Assembly: GCF_015644585.1 (NCBI RefSeq)
Contig: NZ_JADOBI010000001.1
Location: forward strand, 496,001-560,000
DNA from: Rahnella laticis
Lineage (GTDB): Bacteria > Pseudomonadota > Gammaproteobacteria > Enterobacterales > Enterobacteriaceae
Reading direction: 5' to 3'
Length of the DNA: 64,000 nt
Shown: positions 1 to 19,182 of the stretch, in pieces
Layout: each line of letters opens with the position of its first letter
Position numbering within the stretch: position 1 is the stretch's first letter
The notes under the pieces: generated by a model
What the model saw: the letters and a program-made list of their open reading frames with translations, nothing else
What the model was told of the DNA's origin: nothing
Databases searched by the model: none
Position numbers and translations under genes: made by a program

Positions 1-117
1 GGTTTGTTTATCGAACGCGACGATGTCCGGCGGCGGATCCTGCTGTTTCAAATCGGTGGCAAGGATGGTGCCGACCTCGCCTAAACCGATTATCGCTATA
101 CGGGTAATGTCAGTCAT
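1..117 (-). CDS. NAD(P)-binding dehydrogenase, N-terminal fragment (cut by window edge)
   Basis: Only the first 39 codons are inside the window. They open with a Rossmann-type dinucleotide-binding start, IAIIGLGEVG at residues 7-16, followed by an acidic residue at about the right place for the end of the second strand. This is the pattern of the 6-phosphogluconate/3-hydroxyisobutyrate dehydrogenase superfamily. The ATG overlaps the end of galD by 8 bases, so it is the last visible gene of the galBCD operon and probably acts on a gallate-pathway or related hydroxy acid. The substrate cannot be told from this fragment. Confidence 0.6.
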   Translation of the reverse strand, partial: MTDITRIAIIGLGEVGTILATDLKQQDPPPDIVAFDKQT

Positions 118-1234
118 GCTCTGCCTCCTGATGGCCGCCCCAGACGCTGGCGGGAATGGCGACGCGGCCTTCAAAAATCAGGCGGGCGGTGCGCAGAAGG
201 GCGCATCCGGCCAGCCGTTGTGCGCCGCTTTTATCCGGGTCGAGTTGCAGTTCAACGCTGAATTCGCCGGTCGGATGTTCCACGCTGATGAGCGATACCG
301 GGCCATGAATACCACCGGACGGCGTGTGCGCCAGTCCCTCGGTCACGGAGCCGGGGATCAGACAGGCGCTGGCGACGCTGACCGCACCGAGCACGCCAAT
401 CGAGGCGTGGCAGCGGTGTGGAATGAACGTCCGGCTCGATATTGCGCCGCCGTTTCGCGGTTCCGCGATAAGCGTCATTTTAGGTACCGTACGCTGTGAA
501 ACGTCGCCGAGATTCATTTTAAAACCAGCCTGTAAACGGATCGATTCAAGACGCGCTTTCAGCTCAGAATCGGCGTCGAGCTGTTCACGGCTTTCATAGC
601 CGCTGCGGCCTAAATCTGCCGCGCGCAGCAGAACCACCGGCATGCCGTTATCGATACAGGTGACTTCGGTACCGTCGAAAACGTCCCGCGCATTGCCCGT
701 GGGCAGTAAAGCGCCACAGCTGGAACCGGCGATATCCGCAAATTCCACGCTGATTTTTGCCGCCGTGCCCGGCACGCCGTCGATACGCAAATCGCCCTGA
801 TAGCAAACCTGACCGTCTTCAACCGGGACATGCGCCGTGGCAATCTGCCCGGTGTTTTCCATATAAATACGCACCGGCGTGATGCCGTTTCGAGCGGCAA
901 TCAGATCCCGTTCGAGGGCGAACGGGCCGACGGCGGCCAGAATATTGCCGCAGTTCTGGCCGTAGTCCACCACGGCGTTGTCCACGTTAACCTGCGCAAA
1001 CAGGTAATCGACATCGGCGTCAGCGCGGGCAGAAGGGCGGATTATTGCTACTTTGCTGGTCAGCGGATCGGCACCGCCCAGCCCGTCTATCTGGCGCGGA
1101 TCGGGCGACCCCATAACGGCCAGCAAAACGCGGTCGCGTAACGCCGGGTCTCGCGGCAGATCGTCAGCCAGAAAGAAGGCGCCTTTAGACGTGCCGCCGC
1201 GCATTAACAGGCAGGGAATTCGGGTCTGTGGCAT
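110..1234 (-). CDS. galD: 4-oxalomesaconate tautomerase (GalD, PrpF family)
   Basis: A 374-residue PrpF-family protein (DapF-like fold). It starts PCLLMRGGTSKGAFF, the conserved N-terminal PrpF/GalD segment, and has GGADPLTSKVAI near residue 53 and DYGQNCGNI near residue 90. In Pseudomonas putida GalD isomerises the keto and enol forms of 4-oxalomesaconate, the product of gallate ring cleavage, before GalB hydrates it. Here it follows galB and galC on the same strand, which supports this role over aconitate isomerisation by PrpF in the methylcitrate cycle: no prp genes are nearby. The function is family knowledge plus context. Confidence 0.88.
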   Translation of the reverse strand: MPQTRIPCLLMRGGTSKGAFFLADDLPRDPALRDRVLLAVMGSPDPRQIDGLGGADPLTSKVAIIRPSARADADVDYLFAQVNVDNAVVDYGQNCGNILAAVGPFALERDLIAARNGITPVRIYMENTGQIATAHVPVEDGQVCYQGDLRIDGVPGTAAKISVEFADIAGSSCGALLPTGNARDVFDGTEVTCIDNGMPVVLLRAADLGRSGYESREQLDADSELKARLESIRLQAGFKMNLGDVSQRTVPKMTLIAEPRNGGAISSRTFIPHRCHASIGVLGAVSVASACLIPGSVTEGLAHTPSGGIHGPVSLISVEHPTGEFSVELQLDPDKSGAQRLAGCALLRTARLIFEGRVAIPASVWGGHQEAEHD

Positions 1235-4283: not shown

Positions 4284-5396
4284 ATGAAAACTACAGAAAA
4301 CGAAGTGGCTCGCAAAAAGAAAGTCGTTCTGGTGACGGATTTGCTCATCGGGCGGGGCGGAATGGAAAACGTAACAAGCCAAATCGTATCTGAATTTAAA
4401 AAGAGCGATGAGTTTGATGCCGGATTCTTCGTGATTAACAGTGGCGAAAAAACGCAGTCCAGAACGTGGTTGGATAATGCTGTCTTCCATGAAAGTGTGT
4501 GTAAATTAAGAAATAAAAAAATCAAAAACTTTATACATACGCTCAGACTGATGTTCTTTATTAAGAAACATAAACCTGATCACGTTATTACGCTCAATAC
4601 TATCCCTAATCTGATGGCGTATCGCGCAATCAAATATTCAGGACAGAAATCTGTTTTGTCGACCTGGATGCATCTTCCTCCCAAAGAAAGATACCGTCCG
4701 CATTATCTTTTGTCTGCACGTCATCATTTCGCCATCAGCGGGGAGATTAAGAATCAACTCGTGGCCCTGGGCGTCGCTCCGGCCGATGTTGATGTAGTGT
4801 TTAATCCGGTTAAAAAGACAGAAGTCGTTATTCCAAGACCCTCTCATCTTCGAATCCTGTACGTAGGCCGGATTCATTTCGAAAGGCAAAAACAGTTAAA
4901 AGATTTGTTCGATGCTGTCCGGAAAATCAACATTCCCTGGTCCCTGGAAATTGTCGGTGACGGAGAGGATGTGGCTGAATGCCAGGCTTATACGCATACG
5001 CTGGGTATTTCAGGCCATGTTACATGGCATGGCTGGCAAAGTGATCCCTGGAAATATGTCGAGGAAAGCATTCGGGAAGTTAGCTGTCTGGCGATGACCT
5101 CGAATTTCGAAGGGTTCCCGCTTGTCTTGCTGGAGGCTATTTCCCGCGGGATCTATTGTATTTCTTCCGATTGCGTCAGCGGTCCATCCGAAATAATTGA
5201 AAACAATATAAATGGCAGGCTTTATCCGCAAAATGATAGTGTGCGTCTCTCTGAAATTCTGCAACAAACCGGCATGGCTGTGGCCCTGCCCGAACATGCT
5301 TTAATCAAAGAAAGCATAGGGAAATTTTATGAAGACAAGTATATGGAAAACTTCAAGATGATCCTTAATAAAATCTCTGAGGATAAAAATGCTTAA
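4284..5396 (+). CDS. LPS core glycosyltransferase, WaaB-like (GT4 family)
   Basis: A 370-residue GT-B glycosyltransferase. The N-terminal half has the glycine-rich acceptor loop LIGRGGMENV (about residues 22-31). The C-terminal half has ILYVGRIHFERQKQ, VGDGED and SNFEGFPLVLLEAISRG, the EX7E-type donor site of GT4 enzymes. The phrases WHGWQSDPW and SSDCVSGPSEII closely match what I recall of E. coli WaaB, the UDP-galactose:(glucosyl)LPS alpha-1,6-galactosyltransferase. It overlaps the ligase gene downstream by 8 bases. Base composition is visibly AT-richer than the gallate genes on both sides, suggesting separate origin. The sugar transferred is not predictable. Confidence 0.82.
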   Translation: MKTTENEVARKKKVVLVTDLLIGRGGMENVTSQIVSEFKKSDEFDAGFFVINSGEKTQSRTWLDNAVFHESVCKLRNKKIKNFIHTLRLMFFIKKHKPDHVITLNTIPNLMAYRAIKYSGQKSVLSTWMHLPPKERYRPHYLLSARHHFAISGEIKNQLVALGVAPADVDVVFNPVKKTEVVIPRPSHLRILYVGRIHFERQKQLKDLFDAVRKINIPWSLEIVGDGEDVAECQAYTHTLGISGHVTWHGWQSDPWKYVEESIREVSCLAMTSNFEGFPLVLLEAISRGIYCISSDCVSGPSEIIENNINGRLYPQNDSVRLSEILQQTGMAVALPEHALIKESIGKFYEDKYMENFKMILNKISEDKNA

Positions 5397-6639
5397 CCAC
5401 AATGAAACACGGATTTTGAAAATAATTGTTAACACGACTGTCATTGGACTGTGTATTTCACTGGCGTTAAGTATGTTTGTCACAGGCTTACCTCAGAAGA
5501 TCTTTTACGTCTTATCGTATGTTTCTTTTTTCACTGTTTTGTATGCATTTTTTAAAAAACATTTCGCCTGCAAGAGTGAGAGATTTTACCTCGGCATATT
5601 CCTTTCGCTGGTGTTTTTAGCCGTTGTCAGGTTTACCTGGGCCATGATATTCAAACATGATGGCGTCACGCCGTCCCCGGCCAGTGCGGGTATCATTAAT
5701 AATTATTTATTGGGCAGCAAAAGGATCCTTCTGGGTGCCTTTATTTTGCTCTGTTTTTCTGTCTACGGTTTTCTGGTGACGAAAAGAACCATCCTGTTAA
5801 GCAAGATCATCATCACCATCGGGTTGATGATTACGCTGGGAGTCGGGTTACATGAGCATCTTACGCTTAACGAACGCATTAAACTGACCACGGATGCGGC
5901 CTCCATATCGTCTTATATGGTTATCTTCATTTACTGTGCGCATCTTGGTTTAAGCCGTCTGGAGCATAATGCGTCTTCTAAAATTTTAGATTTAATCGCG
6001 TTTGTCGTGACTTTCGCTATTTTGTATTTATGCGGAACGAGAATAACCGTTCTGGCGCTTATTTTCCTCAAGATTACCTTTATGCTGATTGAGTATAAAA
6101 TCAACCTGATCAGGAACTGGCGCGTAACCGGACTTATTATTCTGGCCATTGCCGTTATTATGGGTGTTACAGGAAAACGCTGGGCGCAAGGGATCAATGA
6201 TATTCAGGAATATGATGTTCAAAGTTCCACATCCTTAGGTGCGCGGATGGCAATCTGGGAAAGTGGAAACTTTTTCCTGCATAGCCATTTAGGCTTTTCA
6301 TCGCCGGATGAAAGAACCGAAATCGCGCGGAAATTCATTAAAACGAATCATCCTGAAAATATTGAGGGATATACCAATGTTCAGTACAACATGCATAATG
6401 AATTCCTCGAAGTCACCACTTTGCAGGGGCTCTTAGGCACATTATCGTTGCTATTAATCTATGGCGTTATCATTGTCGGTGGCATCAGGAAATGCGATAT
6501 AAAAGGCGTGATGATACCGTTTATTGTGTTGTTTATTACCGGGCTGACCGATTCAGTGATTTTGAATAGCCAGACGGCCACACTATTTGTCATTGCGCTG
6601 GCGATTTGCAGCCTCAAACCTTTCAAAGCAGTGAAATGA
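5389..6639 (+). CDS. O-antigen ligase / Wzy_C family membrane protein (WaaL-like)
   Basis: A 416-residue polytopic membrane protein with about ten to twelve hydrophobic segments. A large soluble loop in the second half contains TSLGARMAIWESG (about residue 282) and the histidine segment MHNEFLEVTTLQGLLG, the hallmark of the Wzy_C/O-antigen ligase domain. Such enzymes join undecaprenyl-linked O-antigen to the lipid A core on the periplasmic side of the inner membrane. Pairing with a WaaB-like transferase favours WaaL over an O-antigen polymerase, but these two classes are hard to separate by sequence. The start overlaps the transferase gene by 8 bases, so the two are co-expressed. Confidence 0.78.
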   Translation: MLNHNETRILKIIVNTTVIGLCISLALSMFVTGLPQKIFYVLSYVSFFTVLYAFFKKHFACKSERFYLGIFLSLVFLAVVRFTWAMIFKHDGVTPSPASAGIINNYLLGSKRILLGAFILLCFSVYGFLVTKRTILLSKIIITIGLMITLGVGLHEHLTLNERIKLTTDAASISSYMVIFIYCAHLGLSRLEHNASSKILDLIAFVVTFAILYLCGTRITVLALIFLKITFMLIEYKINLIRNWRVTGLIILAIAVIMGVTGKRWAQGINDIQEYDVQSSTSLGARMAIWESGNFFLHSHLGFSSPDERTEIARKFIKTNHPENIEGYTNVQYNMHNEFLEVTTLQGLLGTLSLLLIYGVIIVGGIRKCDIKGVMIPFIVLFITGLTDSVILNSQTATLFVIALAICSLKPFKAVK

Positions 6640-6712: not shown

Positions 6713-7153
6713 TCACTTATTCAAATTCACCACCGCCTGGCGGATGGCGTATTCGTAGCCCTGAATGCCGAAACCGCAGATGACACCGACGGAAACGTCG
6801 GAGAGGAATGAGTGGTGGCGGAACGCGTCGCGTTTATGCACGTTGGTGATGTGCACTTCATATAGCGGCAGGCTTACGGCGGTGACCGCGTCGCGGATGG
6901 CGACCGAGGTATGGGTCCAGGCGGCGGCGTTCAGCACAATGGCATCGGCAGAGCCGCGACAGGCCTGAATGCGGTCGATCAAATCGCCTTCGTGGTTGGT
7001 CTGGAAAAATTCGATTTCCGCACCGCAGCTTTTTCCGGTCTGATGACACAGTGTTTCGATGGTGGCCAGCGTGTCATAACCGTAAGTTTCCGGTTCGCGG
7101 GTGCCGAGCAGATTCAGGTTCGGGCCGTTAAAGACGGCAATTTTGTAGTTCAT
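6713..7153 (-). CDS. aroQ: Type II 3-dehydroquinate dehydratase, probably catabolic
   Basis: A 146-residue protein with the full type II dehydroquinase pattern: NGPNLNLLGTREPETYG at residues 9-25 (with the catalytic tyrosine), NAAAWTHTSVA for substrate binding, and EVHITNVHKRDAFRHHS. It interconverts 3-dehydroquinate and 3-dehydroshikimate. Location as the last gene of the galT-galA-lactonase operon, rather than beside accB, suggests a peripheral role in quinate or shikimate breakdown, since dehydroshikimate can be turned into protocatechuate or gallate. A second housekeeping copy elsewhere in the genome is expected but cannot be seen here. Confidence 0.9.
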   Translation of the reverse strand: MNYKIAVFNGPNLNLLGTREPETYGYDTLATIETLCHQTGKSCGAEIEFFQTNHEGDLIDRIQACRGSADAIVLNAAAWTHTSVAIRDAVTAVSLPLYEVHITNVHKRDAFRHHSFLSDVSVGVICGFGIQGYEYAIRQAVVNLNK

Positions 7154-7168
7154 CGGGTCTTCCTTTCT

Positions 7169-8002
7169 TCAGTAATCTGCAAAACCAAACAGGTCTTTTG
7201 GTGTCTGCCACAGGATCTGGTGCCGCGTTTTCTCATCCGGGAATAACTGTTCCACCAGCATCAGCAACGTGCCGAGGTCCATCCGGTGTTCTGCGCGCAG
7301 GAACGGCCAGTCGGAACCCCACATGCAATGTTCAGCGCCGAATGCCTCAAGCAGCGCGTGCTGATAAGTGTGGCCGTCCTGATACGGAAAAGGCTGACGG
7401 CTGAATTTCGATAAGCCGGACAGTTTCACCCAGGTGCGTTGCTGGCTCGCGAGCTGCAACAGCGCCTGAAACGCCGGTTGCTGCAAACCTTTCGTCACAT
7501 CGGGGCGGCCTGAGTGATCGATGAGCAGGCGGGTTTTCGTGCGGTTGATCAGCGGCAAAAGTGCCAGCAACTGGTCGCCTTGTACCTGAATGGCGGCGAA
7601 CATGTCCAGTTCGGTCAGGCGCCCCATCAGGGCATCGAGGTGTAAAAAAGGTGCCGTGCCGAGCATCGCCACATTCATCGCGATACCGACCACGCCGGCC
7701 TGTTTGAGCGCGGCGAGTCTTTCCAGCGGAAGTTCAAAAGGTACCACGGCGATGCCCCTGAAGCGGCCATTGCCTTTTTCCAGCGCATCCAGCAGGCATG
7801 AGCTGTCAGTGTTATACCCTGACGTCGGGCCGACAATCAGGGAGTGGCGGATGTTGTAGGCTTGCATCACCGCGCGGTAATAATCGGCGGTGCCAATCTC
7901 GTGCCCTTCCGGACGGTACGGCGTGTCCGGAAGGTACGGGAAGCGCGCCGGATCAAACACGTGATGATGGGTGTCGATCTTGGGTTGCTCAAATATCGTC
8001 AT
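7169..8002 (-). CDS. Amidohydrolase, 2-pyrone-4,6-dicarboxylate lactonase (LigI)-like
   Basis: A 277-residue amidohydrolase-2 family TIM-barrel protein. It has the HxH-type metal motif as DTHHHVFD near residue 10, a central LLIDHSGRPD segment and the C-terminal catalytic aspartate in MWGSDWPF (about residue 230). This layout matches LigI of the COG3618 group. LigI opens 2-pyrone-4,6-dicarboxylate to 4-oxalomesaconate, which would feed GalD/GalB. The start codon overlaps the galA stop by 4 bases (ATGA). The substrate is inferred from gallate context; other lactonases of the same family remain possible. Confidence 0.72.
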   Translation of the reverse strand: MTIFEQPKIDTHHHVFDPARFPYLPDTPYRPEGHEIGTADYYRAVMQAYNIRHSLIVGPTSGYNTDSSCLLDALEKGNGRFRGIAVVPFELPLERLAALKQAGVVGIAMNVAMLGTAPFLHLDALMGRLTELDMFAAIQVQGDQLLALLPLINRTKTRLLIDHSGRPDVTKGLQQPAFQALLQLASQQRTWVKLSGLSKFSRQPFPYQDGHTYQHALLEAFGAEHCMWGSDWPFLRAEHRMDLGTLLMLVEQLFPDEKTRHQILWQTPKDLFGFADY

Positions 8003-9261
8003 GCTTTCGCTTTACCTGCTACAGAGTAGAGAACTTGCTGATTGCGGGTCTTCTGGAATTCCTCCAGCGTTTCACCGCGCATCGCGGAATAAATATGTAA
8101 GTTGGACACGCCCACCACGGCACCGAGTTTTTCCAGCAGGAAGAAGCTCACGCCGTAATGAATCATCCCGCGCCAGTCGAGTTCGCGCAGGAGTTTTTGT
8201 TCATCAGCGGTCAGTTTGTTTTCGGCAAACATCGCGTTCTGGTCAGTGAGGAAACGCTCGCGCCACGCGGGCTGGATCAGGCGATGCAGGAACCGGTTCA
8301 TCCGGAAGGCTTTCAGGCTGCGCGCCTGGGTAAACGGATAGGTGCCCGGCAGTTTTTCCACGCCCGCCAGCTGTTGTGCGATTTTATCGCGCTGGCGCTG
8401 CTGCACGTCCACCGGTGCTTCACGGGACTGATTTTCGAGGATCAGCGTCGCAATACCGGTCATCGACGGCAGGTAATAGGCCTGATGCAGTTTCTTCACG
8501 TTGGCGGAAAGTGCACCGCGCATCACCAGCCACATGATGACTTCCGAACCTTCCAGCCCGCCGAGCGTGGCGAACTCCGCCAGCGTCATTTCAGTCAGAC
8601 GTTCCGGGTCGTTCACGATCATATCGACAAACTGTTCGTCCCACTGCGGGTTGTTAAAGCCGCAACGTTCGCCGTGAACCTGATGGGAAACGCCGCCGGT
8701 GGCAACAATCGCCACGTTCAGATCTTCCGGAAAACTTTCGATGGCGCGGCGCAGCGCCTGACCGAGTTTGTAGCAACGGCGAGCCGTCGGGATCGGGAAC
8801 TGCAACACGCCGATTTGCAGCGGAACGATTTGCGTCGGCCAGCCGCCTTCATGCGGCATCAGCGCGGAAAGCGGTGAAAACAGGCCGTGATCCAGCGGTT
8901 TGTCCTGGAAGAACGACATATCAAATTCGTCCGCCATCAGGCTGGCACCGATGTGCTGAGACAGCGCCGCATGGCCTTTCACCGGCGGCAGGTCGCGCGG
9001 GCCGCCGCCTTCATCCGCGACTTCGTAGTGGTCATCAATGCCTAACGTAAACGCCGAATAGTGATCAAAGAAAAAGGACGTGACGTGGTCGTTGAAGATA
9101 TACACCAGCGCGTCGGGTTTCTTTTCTTCGAGCCATTTTTGCATCGGCGCAAAACTCTCGAAAATCGGTGCCCAGGCGCTTTCGTCCTGTTTGTTATGAT
9201 CCACTGCGAAACCGATAGTCGGGGTATGTGAAACCGCTAAACCGCCTATGATCTTAGCCAT
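7999..9261 (-). CDS. galA: Gallate dioxygenase (GalA), extradiol ring cleavage
   Basis: A 420-residue protein from the ATG at 9261; a 12-codon upstream extension is dropped because family members start MAKIIGGLAVSHTPTIG. The first 280 or so residues form a LigB-type extradiol dioxygenase domain, with iron-ligand candidates in AVSHTPT near residue 9 and in FNDHVTSFFFDHYSAF (about 57-72). The C-terminal 130 residues form a LigA-like domain, as in GalA of P. putida and DesB, where both subunits are fused. The enzyme opens gallate between C4 and C5 with O2 to give 4-oxalomesaconate. It lies 92 bp downstream of the transporter gene. Confidence 0.93.
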   Translation of the reverse strand: MAKIIGGLAVSHTPTIGFAVDHNKQDESAWAPIFESFAPMQKWLEEKKPDALVYIFNDHVTSFFFDHYSAFTLGIDDHYEVADEGGGPRDLPPVKGHAALSQHIGASLMADEFDMSFFQDKPLDHGLFSPLSALMPHEGGWPTQIVPLQIGVLQFPIPTARRCYKLGQALRRAIESFPEDLNVAIVATGGVSHQVHGERCGFNNPQWDEQFVDMIVNDPERLTEMTLAEFATLGGLEGSEVIMWLVMRGALSANVKKLHQAYYLPSMTGIATLILENQSREAPVDVQQRQRDKIAQQLAGVEKLPGTYPFTQARSLKAFRMNRFLHRLIQPAWRERFLTDQNAMFAENKLTADEQKLLRELDWRGMIHYGVSFFLLEKLGAVVGVSNLHIYSAMRGETLEEFQKTRNQQVLYSVAGKAKA

Positions 9262-9353
9262 CTTAAATCCTCTGAACTTTTTGTAGGGTAATCGCAACGC
9301 AGCCGCTGCGTCAGTGTATTTATGTTTCTAATTATCAGGAGGCTAACGCAAGG

Positions 9354-11057: not shown

Positions 11058-11897
11058 TTATTCCGGCATGCCCCAAAAGCAGTCGTCATCGAGGGTGACG
11101 GAGGCGATTTTTTGCACCGGTCCGCGCATGCTGACCTGAAAATCACCGCTGAAGCTTATCGCCAGTGTGCCGCCCGGCATATGCACCGTGACGTTGTCGT
11201 CCACGTGTCCGAGTTTGCGCATGGCGCTGGCGGCGGCGCAACTGCTGCTGCCGGACGCCAGCGTGTAACCGGCTCCGCGTTCCCAGATCCCGATGCTGAT
11301 ATTGTTGCGATCCAGCACTTCAACAAACTGCACGTTGGTGCGTTTCGGGAAAATCGCCAGCGTTTCTATTTCTCCGCCCAGTTGTCTGACTAAATCCAGG
11401 TCGAGCTTTTTCACCAATATCACGCAATGCGGATTGCCCATCGACACCAGTGTGGCGCTGAGCTGATGGCCGCCGACGACCAGCGGAAACGCCAGCGCGT
11501 CGTCGCCTTCGACGCTCGCCGGTAACGCCGACGGCGAAAATTTTGCCTGCCCCATATCCACAATCACCTGATGCGCGCCTTCGGCGACTTCGCAACGCAC
11601 CTGACCGCCCAGCGTATTCACCAGAAAAGGCGCATGCCCGACGCGGCCAATATCAGACAGATAACGGGCGTAAATACGCAGGCCGTTGCCGCTTTTCTCC
11701 GCCTCGGATCCGTCGGGATTGATGATGCGCAATGTCGGGATTTCTGCGTCATCGATGTCGATCAGTAATCCGTCAGAACCGATGCCGTAATGGCGGTCAC
11801 AGATGCGCTGAATTTGCTGATTTGTCAGCAGGCTGGCGACGCTGTGATGGCAGACCAGATAATCGTTACCCAGCCCGTGATAGCGGTGAAAAAGCAT
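11058..11897 (-). CDS. DapF-fold isomerase-like protein with both catalytic cysteines replaced by serine
   Basis: A 279-residue homologue of diaminopimelate epimerase, from the ATG at 11897 (MLFHRYHGLGNDYLV); upstream in-frame codons have no family match. The DapF landmarks are kept: HGLGND near residue 7, NPDGSEAEKSGNG at 60-72, VSMGNPHCVI near 151 and ERGAGYTLASGSSSC at 206-220. In DapF the two proton-shuttling cysteines lie in CGNG and ACGSG; here they are Ser69 (AGC codon) and Ser215 (TCC codon). It is therefore unlikely to be the lysine/murein DapF. It may be a repurposed isomerase, dehydratase or binding protein. It is divergent from a GNAT gene and follows the gallate block; its role is unknown. 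Confidence 0.85.
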   Translation of the reverse strand: MLFHRYHGLGNDYLVCHHSVASLLTNQQIQRICDRHYGIGSDGLLIDIDDAEIPTLRIINPDGSEAEKSGNGLRIYARYLSDIGRVGHAPFLVNTLGGQVRCEVAEGAHQVIVDMGQAKFSPSALPASVEGDDALAFPLVVGGHQLSATLVSMGNPHCVILVKKLDLDLVRQLGGEIETLAIFPKRTNVQFVEVLDRNNISIGIWERGAGYTLASGSSSCAAASAMRKLGHVDDNVTVHMPGGTLAISFSGDFQVSMRGPVQKIASVTLDDDCFWGMPE

Positions 11898-12089
11898 GTT
11901 TGTGATCCCAATATATTCATCATTGATATGAATACATGTAATGGGAAAACGGCGGTTTGTCAGCTTTATTTTGACTGGATTTACCACGCGGATTCCCGGG
12001 CTGATGAGTTCACGAATGTAAAATTCGCGCCGCGTGTGGTAATAAACACTTTCGCCGGTTATTCCGCGAGCCACAACAAGGAGTTATTC

Positions 12090-12668
12090 ATGGAAACCTT
12101 TACCGTTCCGGTGGCCTTTCCGCCACTGAAAATCGTGACGCCCCGCCTGACGCTGCGGCAGTGGCGCGACAGCGATGCCGATCCGTTTGCCGAAATGAAT
12201 GCTGACCCGCGGGTGATGGAGTTTTTTCCGTCCACAATGACCCGTGAAAAAAGCGACGAGATGCTCACCCGTTGCCGGGATTTGATTGCGGTGCGCGGCT
12301 GGGGGATCTGGGCGGTTGAGCTGCGTGAAACCGGTGAGTTTATCGGTTTTGTTGGCCTGCATACGCCCGGTTATGATTTGCCGTTTACGCCGTGTGTGGA
12401 AATCGGCTGGCGGCTTCGTGCTGACGTGTGGGGAAAAGGCTATTGCAGCGAGGCGGCGCATGCAGCGCTGAATGCCGGATTTGAACAGCTCGGGCTGGAT
12501 GAAATCGTGGCCTTTACAGCCTTACCGAATGTGCGCTCGCAGGCGGTGATGAAGAAAATGGGGATGACGTGTGACATCAGCGAAAACTTCAACCATCCGG
12601 CGGTAGAGAAGGGAAGCTGGCTTGAGGAGCATTGCCTGTACCGGCTCAAACGCGGATATCTCGCATAA
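12090..12668 (+). CDS. GNAT N-acetyltransferase (RimJ/RimL-like)
   Basis: A 192-residue GNAT-family protein. The ATG at 12090 follows AAGGAG with 7-base spacing; the frame is open further upstream but has no match to the family. It begins with the RimL-type start TPRLTLRQWRDSDADPFAEM and has the acetyl-CoA pyrophosphate loop in RADVWGKGYCSEAAHAAL (about residues 109-126), then the usual NVRSQAVMKKMGM helix. Such enzymes acetylate small molecules, antibiotics or protein N termini; the target is not predictable. It diverges from the DapF-like gene across about 190 bp. Confidence 0.85.
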   Translation: METFTVPVAFPPLKIVTPRLTLRQWRDSDADPFAEMNADPRVMEFFPSTMTREKSDEMLTRCRDLIAVRGWGIWAVELRETGEFIGFVGLHTPGYDLPFTPCVEIGWRLRADVWGKGYCSEAAHAALNAGFEQLGLDEIVAFTALPNVRSQAVMKKMGMTCDISENFNHPAVEKGSWLEEHCLYRLKRGYLA

Positions 12669-14537: not shown

Positions 14538-15422
14538 TTAGCGGGTGCCGTGCTGGCTGATGGCCTGCGTGGTTTTACGTTTGGTTTGCTCCGCCTGCAC
14601 CGGATCGGCTTTCACCAGCAGCGCGTAAATCAGGTCAAGAACGAACAGTTGTGCGATTTTGGTGCCGATGGAGTCGCCCTGCAACTGACCCTGCTTGTTG
14701 CCGTTAATCAGCACGTAATCGGCCATGCCGGTGATGGGAGAACCGACATTGTGAGTCAGCGCGACGGTGGTCGCTCCGGCTTCTTTCGCCAGTTTAAGCG
14801 CATGCACCGTTTCGGCGGAGGTGCCCGAATGGCTGATGCCGATGGCGACATCGCCGGGCTTCATCAGCGAAGCCTGCATGTACATGAAATGATTGTTGGT
14901 CGCCGCGTCAACGCGCAGCCCGATACGCATGAGCTTGCTTTTGGCGTCTTCAGCGGTAATGCCGGAAGAGCCCAGCCCGAAAATACAAATCCGGTCAGCG
15001 GGGCGCATCAGTTTCACCACCTGTTCGACGTTTTCCAGCGACAGCAGATTAATGGTTTCGGTCAGCACGTTATTGATCGCCGACTGCAATCTTCCGGCAA
15101 TCGCCTGCGGGCTGTCGGCGTCCTGAACATCGGCGTCCAGGAGGCTTTCTTCAGGATCCGGACGCGTCGCCACTTCGATCGCCAGATCCATTTTGAAATC
15201 CTGAAAACCTTTGTAACCCAGCGTGCGGCAGAAACGAATAATCGTGGCTTCACCGGCCTGCGTGAGGGTGGAAAGTTCAGCGAGGGAAAGTTGCGTGACT
15301 TTGGAAGGTTCGGCCTGAATATAAACCGCAATGCGCTGCGCGGAGCGGGTCAGGCTGTTTCGCATCGCCCCCAGAGCATCAAGAATTTTACCTGGTTTGA
15401 AATGTTGAGCACCCGTTTTCAC
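14538..15422 (-). CDS. RpiR/SIS-family regulator of sialic acid genes (NanR-type)
   Basis: A 294-residue protein with an N-terminal RpiR HTH domain (about residues 10-85, TQAGEATIIRFCRTLGYKG) and a C-terminal SIS sugar-phosphate domain (about 130-265, IFGLGSSGITAEDAKSKL and GISHSGTSAETV). The GTG at 15422 follows a GAGGTG ribosome site; an earlier ATG at 15473 would add 17 residues without family match. E. coli NanR is a GntR protein, but Vibrio and Haemophilus use an RpiR-type NanR that senses N-acetylmannosamine 6-phosphate or glucosamine 6-phosphate. The position between nanT and nanK supports that role. Confidence 0.85.
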   Translation of the reverse strand: MKTGAQHFKPGKILDALGAMRNSLTRSAQRIAVYIQAEPSKVTQLSLAELSTLTQAGEATIIRFCRTLGYKGFQDFKMDLAIEVATRPDPEESLLDADVQDADSPQAIAGRLQSAINNVLTETINLLSLENVEQVVKLMRPADRICIFGLGSSGITAEDAKSKLMRIGLRVDAATNNHFMYMQASLMKPGDVAIGISHSGTSAETVHALKLAKEAGATTVALTHNVGSPITGMADYVLINGNKQGQLQGDSIGTKIAQLFVLDLIYALLVKADPVQAEQTKRKTTQAISQHGTR

Positions 15423-15524
15423 GTGGACACCTCGGGGGAAAGAGTGACAGAAACAATGATTTAACCGGTGCACATCATTACATAGTTGGCTGACTCCGTG
15501 AAGCCTGATTACCGCCGCGCAGGG

Positions 15525-16397
15525 CTACAGCGTGGCTCTGGCCCATAACGCCGCGCCGATTAAACCGCTGTCCTGCCGGTGATGCGCCGGAAGCAGCGCA
15601 ACCCGGTAAATCGCCGGTAACTGGTTAAGCGCATGCGCCACTTTTTCCCGATACCCTTCCGCCAGCCCGACGCTGCCGCCCATCATGACGACGTCCAGAT
15701 CCAGCGAGATATGCATGTCCGCCAGCATTGACGCAACGGCCGCCGCTGAACGACCGATCACCCGTTGCGCCTTGCTGTTACCCGCGCGGGCGCGTTCGAA
15801 AACCTGTTCCGCGCCCAGCGGTCTGGCGTTCTCCATCATCGCATGGCCGATGGCGGTGCCTGATGCGACGCTTTCGACACAACCGCGACGCCCGCAGCCG
15901 CACAGCCCGCCCTGCGGATCAAACGCGGTATGGCCGATGTGCCCGGCGAGCCCGTTGCGGCCGGTTAATAATTTTCTGTTCCAGATAATTCCGCCGCCCA
16001 CGCCGGTTGAGACAGTGACAAACAGCGCGTTATCGCAGGTTTCCTGCACGGCCTGATATTCCGCCCACGCCGCGGCCTGTCCGTCATTGAGCACGACATT
16101 CGGTAAATCCGCTACGGCGCGGATGCAGTCCTGCAGAGGAAACCCCGCCAGCCCGCCGAGATTCGCCGGGTTCAGCGCGGTCAGCCGCCCCTGGCTGATA
16201 ATGCCGGTCGAGGCAGCGGCAATCAGATCCACCCGGTTACGCCATGGCGTAATCAGTTTTTCCAGCGCGCCGGCTAACCCGGCGGCATCACCGTGCGGCG
16301 TGGCGATCTGCTGACGTTCAGACAGCGTGCCGTCTTCCGCCACAATGGCCGCCGCAATTTTTGTCCCGCCAATATCCAGTGCTAACGCGTTTCCCAT
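15525..16397 (-). CDS. nanK: N-acetylmannosamine kinase NanK (ROK family)
   Basis: A 290-residue ROK kinase, close to the E. coli NanK length. The ATG at 16397 follows GAGGAAAA; a GTG five codons upstream overlaps that ribosome site and is rejected. Phosphate-binding [12 protein letters not shown] is at residues 8-19, [11 protein letters not shown] in the middle and the zinc motif [10 protein letters not shown] near residue 165, with GHIGH just before it. It phosphorylates N-acetylmannosamine at C6, the step before NanE. It diverges from nanE across about 140 bp. Confidence 0.9.
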
Positions 16398-16495
16398 CTG
16401 AGTTTTCCTCACAAAACTGAATGCCGGTCACTAACATGAAGCGGTAACCGCGATTTGCGCCATTGCGCGCTGAGAACAAAAGATCTACCATGATT

Positions 16496-16539
16496 GGAGT
16501 TATACTTCATTTAAAATTTAATATTGGAGTTTTAAGTTC
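16496..16539. promoter_or_regulatory. Two direct copies of a GGAGT-type operator before nanE
   Basis: Two similar elements, ATTGGAGTTATACTTCAT and ATTGGAGTTTTAAGTTCAT, start exactly 30 bp apart (GGAGT at 16496 and at 16526), about three helical turns. The second also supplies the nanE ribosome-binding GGAG and runs into its ATG. They resemble the palindrome before nanT (14356), so they probably bind the same regulator and control the divergent nanK/nanE promoters. Confidence 0.5.
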
Positions 16540-17256
16540 ATGGTAAAGACAAACGTGCGCAACATGAATGATCTCCTGACCCGGCTTGCCCGCGGGCTGA
16601 TCGTTTCCTGCCAGCCGGTGCCCGGCAGTGCCATGGACAAACCGGAAATCGTCGCCGCGATGGCGTGCGCAGCGCTCGACGGCGGGGCGGTGGCGCTGCG
16701 TATTGAAGGCATTCGCAACATTGAAGCGGTGCGCCGGTCAACGGATGCACCGGTTATCGGCATTATTAAACGCGACCTGCCGGATTCTGACGTGCGGATC
16801 ACGCCGTGGCCGGAAGACGTGGACGCGCTGAGCGCCGCCGGAGCCGACATTATTGCTTTTGACGTCACGCAGCGTTTTCGCCCCGTGCCGGTTGAGGCGT
16901 TATATCAGCGCGCCCGCGAAGCGGGATGCCTGACGATGGCCGACGCATCATGCCTTGAAGATGGCCTGCTGGCGCAAAAACTTGGCTGTGATTTTATCGG
17001 CACGACGCTCTCGGGCTATACCCAAACGCCGGTGCCCGAAACGCCGGATATCGCGCTGGTCCGCGCACTGGCGCAGGCCGGATGCCGGGTGATTGCCGAA
17101 GGCCGTTACAACTCCCCCGCGCTGGCCGCTGAAGTGATGGCGGCGGGCGCTTACGCCGTTACCGTCGGATCTGCCGTGACGCGTATCGAACATATTTGCG
17201 GCTGGTTTTGTGAGGCCATTGCGCAAAACGAACAGAACAAACTGACCGGTTTCTGA
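16540..17256 (+). CDS. nanE: N-acetylmannosamine-6-phosphate 2-epimerase NanE
   Basis: A 238-residue TIM-barrel NanE protein. It has the opening [19 protein letters not shown], the segment [18 protein letters not shown] with the catalytic lysine region, [11 protein letters not shown], and the phosphate-binding end [13 protein letters not shown] plus [13 protein letters not shown]. It converts N-acetylmannosamine 6-phosphate to N-acetylglucosamine 6-phosphate, which then enters the nag pathway encoded elsewhere. It is the first gene of the nanE-nanA unit and uses the ATG at 16540 after GGAG. Confidence 0.93.
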
Positions 17257-17300
17257 AAAAACGGACTGATTCCCTTAACTTCCCATTGATGAGAAAGCAC

Positions 17301-18191
17301 ATGAAAAAATTAACAGGTCTGATTGCTGCTCCACACACGCCGTTTGATGCGCAGGGTGAGGTGAATTTTCCGGTCATCGATCAGATAGCGGAACATCTGG
17401 TGAACGAAGGCGTGAAGGGCGTTTACGTCTGTGGAACTACCGGTGAAGGCATTCACTGTTCAGTTGAAGAACGTAAAAAAATAGCCGAACGCTGGGTGAA
17501 AGCCGCGCAGGGCAAATTAAGCATTACGCTGCACACCGGCGCACTCAGTATTAAAGACGCGGTGGAATTATCGCGCCACGCCGAAACGCTGGATATTTTT
17601 GCCACGTCGGTTATCGGGCCGTGCTTCTTTAAACCGGCAAACGTGGATGACCTGATTGATTACTGCCAGGCGATAGCGTCGGCGGCACCGTCAAAAGGTT
17701 TCTATTATTACCATTCCGGCATGTCTGGCGTGAATCTGGATATGGAACAGTTCCTGATCAAAGGCGGATCCAAAATCCCGAACCTGTCCGGCATTAAATT
17801 CAACAGCGCAGATTTGTATGAATTCCAGCGCTGCCAGCGCGTCAGCGGCGGTAAATTCGATATTCCGTTTGGCGTAGACGAACATCTGCCCGGCGGTCTG
17901 GCCGTCGGTGCCACCGGCGCAGTAGGCAGCACCTATAACTACGCCGCGCCGCTGTTCCATAAAATCATTGAAGACTTTAACGCCGGGAATCAGACCGCCG
18001 TCCGTCAGGGCATGGATCGCGTTGTGGCGCTGATCTGCGTACTGGTGGAGTTCGGCGGTGTCGCCGCAGGCAAAGCCGCGATGAAACTGCACGGCATCGA
18101 CGCCGGCAACCCGCGCCTTCCGCTGCGCGCACTGACCCGGGAACAAAAGCAAACCGTCGAAAACCGCATGCGCGATGCATTAGGTTTATAG
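17301..18191 (+). CDS. N-acetylneuraminate lyase, animal-like subtype (NanA function)
   Basis: A 296-residue DapA/NanA-family aldolase. The family site GTTGEG lies at residues 45-50, the tyrosine cluster FYYYH at 134-138 and the Schiff-base lysine in GIKFN at Lys166. GVDEHLPGGLAVGATGAVG and the late PRLPL follow the pattern I recall from vertebrate N-acetylneuraminate lyases more than E. coli NanA. It splits sialic acid into N-acetylmannosamine and pyruvate. The ATG at 17301 is chosen (GAGAAAG upstream); in-frame TTG 17286 and ATG 17289 would add 4-5 residues. It lies 44 bp after nanE, so it belongs to the same unit. Confidence 0.85.
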   Translation: MKKLTGLIAAPHTPFDAQGEVNFPVIDQIAEHLVNEGVKGVYVCGTTGEGIHCSVEERKKIAERWVKAAQGKLSITLHTGALSIKDAVELSRHAETLDIFATSVIGPCFFKPANVDDLIDYCQAIASAAPSKGFYYYHSGMSGVNLDMEQFLIKGGSKIPNLSGIKFNSADLYEFQRCQRVSGGKFDIPFGVDEHLPGGLAVGATGAVGSTYNYAAPLFHKIIEDFNAGNQTAVRQGMDRVVALICVLVEFGGVAAGKAAMKLHGIDAGNPRLPLRALTREQKQTVENRMRDALGL

Positions 18192-18222
18192 CCCGGGAGT
18201 TCGTTGCTAAACCCCCTCCCAA

Positions 18223-18244
18223 CCTCCCCCTTCGCAGGGGGAGG
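18223..18244. repeat. GC-rich inverted repeat, REP-like
   Basis: CCTCCCCC and GGGGGAGG form an 8-bp stem with the loop TTCGCA, preceded by a related C-rich run at 18212-18220. It lies between the convergent lyase and ROK kinase genes. No T tract follows on either strand, so it looks more like a dispersed REP-type unit than a simple terminator. Confidence 0.55.
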
Positions 18245-18252
18245 AGCAAAAA

Positions 18253-19182
18253 CTATCCTTCTATTCTCCCCATCACTGATGCCCCCACCAGCCCGCCAGC
18301 TGTCAGAAATTTCCCCGGTACCAGCAGTGTCTCCGCATAATTATGTAAAACTCCTTTACGCACCGCCTGATCCAGCGCCGCAATCAGCGCCGTTGCAGAC
18401 GCCAGGCCGCCGCCCGCGACAATCCGTGAAGGGCCGAGAATATTCACCAGCAGCGCCAGCGGTTCGGATACGATTTGCAGCCAGGCGTTTACCGTCAGCC
18501 CGCAGGCCGCATTACCGGCTTGCCAGCCGCTGACGATCTCCAGGCTGGTTTTATCCTGCTGATGGAAATGCTTATGCAGGCGCTCAAGGCCGCGTGCGGC
18601 ACCCAGCATATCGAGGCAACCGGTCTGACCGCAGCCGCATTTGAGGCGCGGAACGGCGTAGGTTTCGCCGTCAATCATGACTTCGGTGCGCGTGATGGCG
18701 CCGTGTCCCCATTCGCCGGTGACGCCACCGTGGCCGCGAACCAGATGGCCGTTAATGACCACGCCGCCGCCGACGCCGGTACCCAAAATAATCGCCACAA
18801 CCACCGCATGATTTTGCGCGTTTCCGGCATGGGCTTCGGCCAGTGCAAAACAGTCGGCGTCGTTGGCGGCGGTGACCGGGCGGTTCAGCGCCGCGCTCAG
18901 ATCTTTTGCCAGTGAACGTCCGGTGAAGGCCGGAATGTTGGTCGCCAGCAGTTCGCCGGTTTGCGGAGAAACCAGCCCGGCGGTGGAAATCGCCAGCGGG
19001 GCAGACGCGGGTAAATCACCGCCAAACTGTGTGATGAAGTTTTGCATTGCCGCCACGAAATCATCCCACGACGAAACGGGTGTCGGCACTTTGCCGCATT
19101 CTTCCACTTCGCCGGAAGCACGTGAAACGCCAAACTTAATAAATGAACCGCCGATATCGGCGCAGAAAACCGCAGAACTCAT
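18253..19182 (-). CDS. ROK-family sugar kinase (N-acetylglucosamine kinase-like)
   Basis: A 309-residue ROK kinase with ADIGGSFIKFGV (residues 9-20, ATP phosphate loop), IILGTGVGGGVVING near residue 132, the GEWGH motif with the zinc-ligand histidine, and CGCGQTGCLD near 183. It has no HTH, so it is an enzyme, not a repressor. Its start overlaps the end of the ABC permease gene by 4 bases (ATGA), so it is made with the transporter. It probably phosphorylates the sugar brought in or released by this system, perhaps an amino sugar. The zinc site and length resemble NagK, but the substrate is not proven. Confidence 0.85.
   Translation of the reverse strand: MSSAVFCADIGGSFIKFGVSRASGEVEECGKVPTPVSSWDDFVAAMQNFITQFGGDLPASAPLAISTAGLVSPQTGELLATNIPAFTGRSLAKDLSAALNRPVTAANDADCFALAEAHAGNAQNHAVVVAIILGTGVGGGVVINGHLVRGHGGVTGEWGHGAITRTEVMIDGETYAVPRLKCGCGQTGCLDMLGAARGLERLHKHFHQQDKTSLEIVSGWQAGNAACGLTVNAWLQIVSEPLALLVNILGPSRIVAGGGLASATALIAALDQAVRKGVLHNYAETLLVPGKFLTAGGLVGASVMGRIEG

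Follow-up and report, generated by a model that had tools for sequence, protein, structure and literature searches.

A DapF lineage with serine at both catalytic cysteine positions, a candidate serine-based diaminopimelate epimerase found in Rahnella

Introduction

The closest described relatives of the protein reported here are the DapF enzymes, which convert LL-diaminopimelate (LL-DAP) to meso-DAP and are cited here, like the other literature, from excerpts of the papers. In the DapF of Anabaena, Asn13, Gly76, Asn77, Gly225 and Thr226 bind the reacting end of DAP, and Asn66, Asn164, Asn197, Glu215 and Arg216 bind its distal end (PMC12039745). The two thiols of this Cys/Cys form lie at helix N-termini and receive hydrogen bonds from backbone NH groups (Gly76 and, for the second thiol, Gly227), and the excerpt of the same paper places no basic group within 4 Å of them (PMC12039745). 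DapF-like relatives with changed substrates include the cofactor-independent racemases of histidine (HisR/CntK), 2,4-diaminobutyrate (PddB) and O-ureidoserine (7VDY). Unlike the Ser/Ser form described below, HisR, CntK and PddB have two cysteines in the excerpts cited, and in PddB the three distal asparagines are all replaced and the arginine is a valine (PMC8225329).

A catalytic serine has precedents in the same fold class. In the proline racemase superfamily, a Ser/Cys 4-hydroxyproline epimerase and a Ser/Thr trans-3-hydroxyproline dehydratase carry a catalytic serine in place of the first cysteine (PMC4113996; text and legend of the excerpt disagree over which accession is which enzyme). 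These members have one serine only and act on other substrates, and no Ser/Ser epimerase is among those described in that excerpt (PMC4113996). A search of the open-access literature, covering in two cases the best-ranked matches (20 of 60 and 15 of 56) and with subscription papers outside its scope, found no report of a Ser/Ser DapF.

Here, we analysed a DapF homologue with serine at both positions, encoded in 64,000 nucleotides of Rahnella laticis DNA (the whole stretch analysed, hereafter the window). It has the fold, length, ligand contacts and helix-N-terminal catalytic positions in common with DapF (TIGR00652, PF01678; Anabaena 9MRO, H. influenzae 1GQZ), and differs from it in the catalytic pair, Ser/Ser instead of Cys/Cys, and in residues of its clade that are rare in Cys/Cys DapF. 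Whereas PddB has lost the distal DAP anchors, the Ser/Ser family keeps them.

Results

The Ser/Ser gene and its product

The features of the locus are as follows.

11058..11897, minus strand: Ser/Ser DapF homologue P0001, 279 amino acids (translation)
11691..11693, minus strand: codon 69, AGC, serine for the first catalytic cysteine (computed from the start at 11897)
11253..11255, minus strand: codon 215, TCC, serine for the second catalytic cysteine (computed from the start at 11897)
11898..12089: intergenic region of 192 bp between the divergent GNAT and Ser/Ser genes
12090..12668, plus strand: GNAT acetyltransferase (PF13302), divergent, start set by eye below aaggag

The minus-strand translation runs from an ATG at 11897-11895 to a stop at 11058. 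Translation, alignment and TIGR00652 confirmed the initial annotation of a DapF-family protein with Ser69 (AGC) and Ser215 (TCC). Both serines align with cysteine in the five PDB DapFs compared and in the canonical dapF of the same genome (G000:C6:86049-86843). Beyond this Cys/Cys protein on contig C6, which is 35% identical to the window protein, no further DapF homologue was found in the 5.7-Mb host genome. The window protein scores 219.4 bits on the DapF equivalog model TIGR00652 (cut-off 114.65), so automatic pipelines would name it DapF, and 166.6 bits on PF01678 (cut-off 34.7), the sole Pfam family matched; in this it differs from GalD/PrpF proteins (PF04303), as PF04303 is not matched. 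The two cysteines that define DapF are replaced (Ser69, Ser215), and when the PROSITE signature around the first cysteine (pattern as given in an excerpt of PMC8225329) was compared by eye, the protein failed at the cysteine alone. The threonine that marks the dehydratases of the proline racemase superfamily at the second position is not present either (Ser215).

The AlphaFold model of the window protein has a mean pLDDT of 92.7 (36-sequence alignment), and its predicted helices 70-82 and 216-228 begin directly after Ser69 and Ser215. The top PDB structural matches of the model are DapF enzymes, the best being the ligand-bound Anabaena DapF (9MRO, TM 0.91). No member of the Ser/Ser subfamily was found among the 20 matches of a PDB sequence search, the best of which are ordinary DapFs, or among the 50 matches listed by a PDB structure search, in which identity to the window protein is at most 36%.

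Genomic neighbourhood

The gene looks monocistronic because of the gaps to its neighbours. As the initial annotation had it, the gene adjoins no lysine gene. The canonical dapF lies elsewhere in the genome. The gallate block and GNAT gene that were named as its setting are present in the window, where an MFS transporter and a gallate dioxygenase follow 324 bp 3′ of the gene, but this setting is not kept in G002 or outside Rahnella. In the window and eight other Rahnella loci, the gene (a remnant in G004) adjoins the MFS transporter and gallate dioxygenase, and the GNAT cluster was found in all nine other Rahnella loci compared (L026 and L115 being from the same genome). In Rahnella G002 (L117), GNAT is kept, no gallate gene cluster lies within about 9 kb, and the gene adjoins an operon that encodes a D-Ala-D-Ala dipeptidase and an ABC transporter of the peptide type (Pfam, NCBIfam). 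Gallate gene clusters were absent from all 15 non-Rahnella loci compared, including those of Rouxiella, Mangrovibacter and G336.

A dipeptidase/ABC-type operon lies about 1.1 kb from the Ser/Ser gene in Rouxiella (L029; families were assigned by Pfam/NCBIfam for L117 only), and in a Selenomonadales genome (L034) a cystathionine-lyase-type gene is followed by the Ser/Ser gene and then by GNAT. A staphylopine-like metallophore locus was considered for the ABC operon near the gene in some genomes; it was dropped because the L117 substrate-binding protein scores far below the nickel/opine cut-offs and the operon has a D-Ala-D-Ala dipeptidase. In the spirochaete family described below, lysA is mostly found near the Ser/Ser gene; the enterobacterial neighbours vary by genome.

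Other parts of the window were also read. A PrpF-family (GalD-like) protein encoded at 110..1234, about 10 kb from the Ser/Ser gene, matches PF04303 only, and we take the GalD/PrpF fold (PF04303) to be related to that of DapF. The stretch 4284..6639, flanked by a LysR-type regulator and the gallate-block dehydroquinase, holds glycosyltransferase-like and membrane-protein ORFs (functions guessed by eye), which look like an insertion because relatives occur at that place in just two of the nine other Rahnella loci (L113, L118). A type II dehydroquinase and an amidohydrolase (6713..9297) directly adjoin the gallate dioxygenase, which suggests that the gallate block also uses quinate or shikimate-type compounds. 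NanE, a DHDPS-family protein, ROK-family proteins and an RpiR-type regulator make up an amino-sugar cluster at 14538..19182, in which the DHDPS-family protein is probably a sialate lyase and not to be counted as a lysine gene.

Conservation in Rahnella and Enterobacterales

A full-length copy was found in 13 of the 14 genomes of the genus, that of the window included. All 13 are Ser/Ser, and the other 12 share 86-96% identity with the copy in the window. In G004 (G004:C1:92297-92582; L113, L222), only codons 1-34 and 210-277 are left, and the gene is therefore dispensable in that species; the remnant is an internal deletion of the Ser/Ser gene and adjoins the GNAT gene. The median pairwise dN/dS is 0.077 among the 13 Rahnella copies (78 pairs) and 0.015 for the canonical dapF (21 pairs, 7 genomes), and the Ser/Ser gene is thus under clear purifying selection, though weaker than that on the housekeeping dapF. 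The canonical dapF is present in 14/14 Rahnella genomes (residues read in 7) and in 6/6 other enterobacterial genomes with the Ser/Ser gene that were checked. Close relatives (E ≤ 1e-60) occur in 6 of 394 genomes and 4 of 114 genera of the order, which therefore points to rare and patchy acquisition in Enterobacterales. In a plasmid search, 112 records matched, all with less than 60% identity, and the 30 listed have at most 37.8%.

A single clade of Ser/Ser proteins

A pattern scan of a species-genome collection returned at least 591 relatives, and the best 80 loci were kept. Among these, 14 have the Ser form (41.6-95% identity) and 66 are Cys/Cys (34-41.7%). The 14 are from Rahnella, Rouxiella, Mangrovibacter, Spirochaetaceae, a Spirochaetes MAG, Selenomonadales, an Aquificota MAG, two Puniceicoccales MAGs and L081, for which the alignment stops short of the second motif. 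Residues were then compared in 57 distinct Ser/Ser and 95 Cys/Cys sequences, with L184 (second motif not found) and L113 in neither group. Serine stands at both positions in 57/57 distinct clade members. In addition, Y6, S41, P61, K68, I75, G97 and Q190 as well as I202, I204, Y211, S217-S219, L229 and M240 each occur in 90% or more of the Ser/Ser set and are rare in the Cys/Cys set.

In a maximum-likelihood tree (140 rows, quick search), the Ser/Ser sequences form one side of a single branch with an SH-aLRT of 99, and this branch persists in a tree without columns 58-78 and 203-225 (139 rows). The trees omit 14 rows (13 near-copies and L113), the second also L160, and sequences of the verrucomicrobial order are outside them. 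The enterobacterial sequences fall among those of spirochaetes and of other lineages, and each serine site uses both TCN and AGY codons (167 Ser/Ser loci, some overlapping). As judged from these alignments and trees, the Ser/Ser pair is fixed throughout one clade with good support. The prospect of homologues that mostly carry Cys/Cys, which would have marked a recent degenerate copy, is thus not borne out, and that explanation was rejected on the fixed Ser/Ser pair, the single clade, the dN/dS of 0.077 and the use of both serine codon families. A 'Cys/Thr' DapF in G410, seen in a tblastn alignment, turned out to be an alignment artefact; the protein reads Cys/Cys.

The DAP-binding pocket

By alignment, the reacting-end contacts of Anabaena DapF map to N11, G70, N71, G216 and S217 of the window protein and the distal contacts to N60, N155, N188, E206 and R207. 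The mapped contacts are invariant in 57/57 Ser/Ser sequences save for position 217 (Ser in 53, Thr in 4), and they are also kept in 52 loci from 51 verrucomicrobial genomes (217 being Ser or Thr). Serine at the equivalent of position 217 is normal in the DapF of H. influenzae and E. coli, according to an excerpt of PMC5296763. The contacts, distal anchors included, are unchanged in the enterobacterial branch. The conservation of the distal anchors, which are lost in PddB, therefore speaks for DAP or a very close analogue as the substrate.

Spirochaete genomes

In the GTDB family of L031, 21 of the 30 genomes have a DapF match (E ≤ 1e-8), and 20 of these 21 carry the Ser/Ser form only, the exception being G442 with Cys/Cys. 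Ser/Ser was read directly in 19 family genomes and, in G416 (contig end cut, row L081), from the alignment. The lysA gene is above cut-off in 19 of the 21 family genomes with DapF versus 2 of the 9 without (Fisher p = 5e-4, kinship ignored). In 17 of the 20 Ser/Ser genomes of the family, lysA and the Ser/Ser gene share a contig and lie no more than 6.2 kb apart (in one of the 17, G411, the lysA piece is truncated and scores below cut-off). In loci whose genes were resolved by the gene caller, the operon order is c36-alr-dapF-M20-lysA (e.g. L031, L035, L204, L206, L211, L212, L214, L217); c36 is an amidohydrolase-family protein in L206 and has no Pfam match in L031. The alr/dapF and dapF/M20 pairs of L206 each overlap by 4 bp in longest-ORF calls. 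In G442 (L219, L218), the operon is without dapF and has a 24-bp gap between alr and M20, and the only DapF of this genome is Cys/Cys and lies on another contig, which looks like a natural swap between the Ser/Ser and Cys/Cys forms.

Ddh (meso-DAP dehydrogenase, a known bypass) was above cut-off in 0 of the 35 genomes tested; dapB had some match in 32/35 but was above cut-off in only 11/35. Two genomes, G418 and G439, have lysA above cut-off with neither a DapF match nor Ddh above cut-off, and two others, G419 and G436, have the Ser/Ser DapF with lysA not above cut-off; many spirochaete and verrucomicrobial genomes are fragmented. Among 392 spirochaete genomes, 208 have a DapF match and 16 were identified as Ser/Ser. 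The remaining matches score lower, and the 15 of them that were read comprise 14 Cys/Cys and one undecided. Outside the family, seven genomes (G572, G454, G816, G615, G465, G537, G483) have the Ser/Ser form only, with lysA above cut-off in four, just below it in two (289.7 and 279.8 vs 297.9) and weak in one. Two DapF matches were found in seven spirochaetes outside the family (G410, G481, G445, G459, G548, G484, G529).

Verrucomicrobial genomes

Two Puniceicoccales MAGs (0.7 and 0.9 Mb) have a Ser/Ser DapF only, with dapB above cut-off and neither lysA nor Ddh. In the GTDB order of G414, which we take to be Opitutales, 309 of 372 genomes have a DapF match, 302 of them a single one (counted by eye); 269 matches are at E ≤ 1e-45 and 40 are weaker. 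All 51 genomes read in this order are Ser/Ser (52 loci, namely the 12 best and 40 stretches from the stronger matches listed, with G1037 present twice as L230 and L256). A DapF match of only E 1e-9 to 1e-20 was seen in 25 genomes of the order, and these very weakly matched genomes may have a divergent or other DapF form.

Ddh was above cut-off in 20 of the 372 genomes. The DapF match is missing in 11 of these 20 versus 52 of the 352 others (p = 7e-5, kinship ignored; 5 of the 11 were scored by absence among the matches listed), so that nine genomes have both Ddh and a DapF match and 52 have neither. A DapF match is thus rarer where the Ddh bypass occurs, which is the pattern expected for a DAP epimerase. 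The neighbours found in 20 verrucomicrobial loci did not include lysA, alr or M20 (none clustered with spirochaete Alr, M20 or LysA), and no neighbour cluster is kept in more than four of these loci.

As for cell-wall chemistry, GC/MS detected ornithine and small amounts of DAP in Opitutus terrae and three Lacunisphaera strains, with TLC for DL-DAP negative and the DAP isomer not resolved in Opitutaceae, according to excerpts of PMC5303756. A DapL route and a 'DapF' (Lacunisphaera, WP_069963382.1) are listed there for one genome (PMC5303756). From its order alone, we infer that the named Lacunisphaera strain carries the Ser/Ser form. For Coraliomargarita, an excerpt of PMC3035286 holds an older statement that DAP is absent.

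Discussion

Taken together, these comparisons suggest that the gene belongs to an old DapF lineage, which we call DapF-S, and that it probably encodes a genuine DAP epimerase (LL-DAP to meso-DAP) using a serine pair. With slightly less assurance, we lean towards a Ser/Ser epimerase that is the sole DAP epimerase in the spirochaete family and most of the verrucomicrobial order and a thiol-free second isozyme in Enterobacterales. The protein departs from DapF in one defining feature, the two cysteines, and most likely works like DapF.

In the proposed mechanism, DAP would be held as in Cys/Cys DapF: the N-termini of helices 2 and 4 would bind the reacting carboxylate, and Asn60, Asn155, Asn188, Glu206 and Arg207 the distal amino-acid end. 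Ser69 and Ser215, each at a helix N-terminus, would provide the base and the acid, one on either face of the alpha-carbon. As a base, a serine alkoxide is much less readily available than a thiolate. Helix dipoles and clade-specific groups could support alkoxide formation, and Lys68, Ser217-Ser218-Ser219 and Tyr211 may assist in generating or stabilising it. The position of Gly227 of Anabaena DapF is Ser218 in 57/57 Ser/Ser sequences and Gly in 95/95 Cys/Cys sequences. Lys68 is present in 54/57 Ser/Ser sequences (Ile or Thr in 3/57) and Tyr211 is replaced by Trp or Phe in 2/57; therefore, neither helper is obligatory. The turnover of an engineered Cys-to-Ser HisR was greatly reduced (excerpt of PMC11602996), and C72A or C207A in chlamydial DapF abolished complementation of a D-Glu auxotroph (excerpt of PMC5885031); both results concern enzymes that are not built for serine. 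The premise of the initial annotation that both cysteines are required in the known epimerases of this fold is too strong, as the Ser/Cys member described in PMC4113996 (excerpt) is a working two-base epimerase.

The main role of the enzyme as a DAP epimerase would be in one spirochaete family and one verrucomicrobial order, and Rahnella and a few other Enterobacterales may have acquired the gene as an accessory second copy. Our best guess for Rahnella is a thiol-free isozyme that would be safe from oxidation or alkylation, or a part in peptidoglycan-peptide salvage. In corynebacterial DapF, formation of a disulfide between the catalytic cysteines turns the enzyme off (excerpt of PMC5296763), which makes an oxidation-proof spare enzyme attractive, although this is only an idea. 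The dipeptidase/ABC operon of G002 and, less closely, that of Rouxiella hint at cell-wall amino-acid salvage.

Since all enterobacterial genomes checked have a canonical dapF in addition to the Ser/Ser gene, the second copy need not share its function, and the enterobacterial branch (Rahnella, Rouxiella, Mangrovibacter, G336) could have been neofunctionalised for another amino acid, for a DAP-like compound (lanthionine, cystathionine or a DAP-containing peptide) or for cell-wall amino-acid salvage. Such a change would fit the dipeptidase/peptide-ABC operon near the gene in G002 (L117) and Rouxiella (L029), the cystathionine-lyase-type neighbour in Selenomonadales L034 and the dN/dS above that of the canonical dapF (0.077 vs 0.015). 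However, we consider it unlikely, with all DAP contacts, distal anchors included, unchanged in this branch and with neighbours that vary from genome to genome. A catalytically silent DAP-binding protein, serving as a sensor, a scaffold or an RppH-type regulator, is a still more doubtful reading. The much slower Cys-to-Ser mutants of HisR (excerpt of PMC11602996) and the E. coli RppH-DapF complex in the PDB (interaction paper PMC4227774, excerpt) lend themselves to it, but the Ser/Ser protein is the only DapF homologue in most lysA-bearing members of the spirochaete family, where it is encoded near lysA, and G442 appears to have the Ser/Ser form swapped for the Cys/Cys form.

The position of alr directly 5′ of the Ser/Ser gene in the spirochaete operon, together with the PLP-dependent 'DapF2' proposed for staphylococci (excerpt of PMC9026213), raises the question of whether the PLP-dependent Alr-family protein of the operon is the DAP epimerase and the Ser/Ser protein does something else. 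This is very improbable: the Alr of L031 reaches 381 bits with TIGR00492, the model for alanine racemase (cut-off 168), G442 retains the operon alr and yet has a Cys/Cys dapF, and the neighbour clusters of the 20 verrucomicrobial loci included no Alr-like protein. The initial annotation had considered a new dehydratase, isomerase or tautomerase linked with gallate catabolism, and the MFS transporter and gallate dioxygenase that adjoin the gene in the window and eight other Rahnella loci, as well as the PrpF/GalD-type protein about 10 kb off in the window, are in keeping with it. We find it hardly credible, as gallate clusters are absent from G002 and from all 15 non-Rahnella loci compared, so that the setting is confined to Rahnella, while lysA mostly lies nearby in the spirochaete family and the pocket retains all of the amino-acid contacts to DAP. 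The accompanying argument, that a Cys-to-Ser change in the proline racemase family goes with dehydration, does not carry over, as the dehydratases carry Thr at the second position (PMC4113996, excerpt), where the window protein has Ser.

A DAP epimerase with a serine pair remains the reading that we prefer. DapF is the textbook two-cysteine, cofactor-free epimerase and a target of drug design, with covalent inhibitors that attack its thiols. The family model scores the Ser/Ser proteins as ordinary DapF, which amounts to an annotation blind spot. The serine clade would be a natural experiment in how a carbon acid with a pKa of about 29 can be deprotonated without a thiolate, and its members are predicted to be DAP epimerases that are immune to thiol reagents and oxidation. 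If true, this would overturn the rule that DapF chemistry requires a thiol/thiolate pair.
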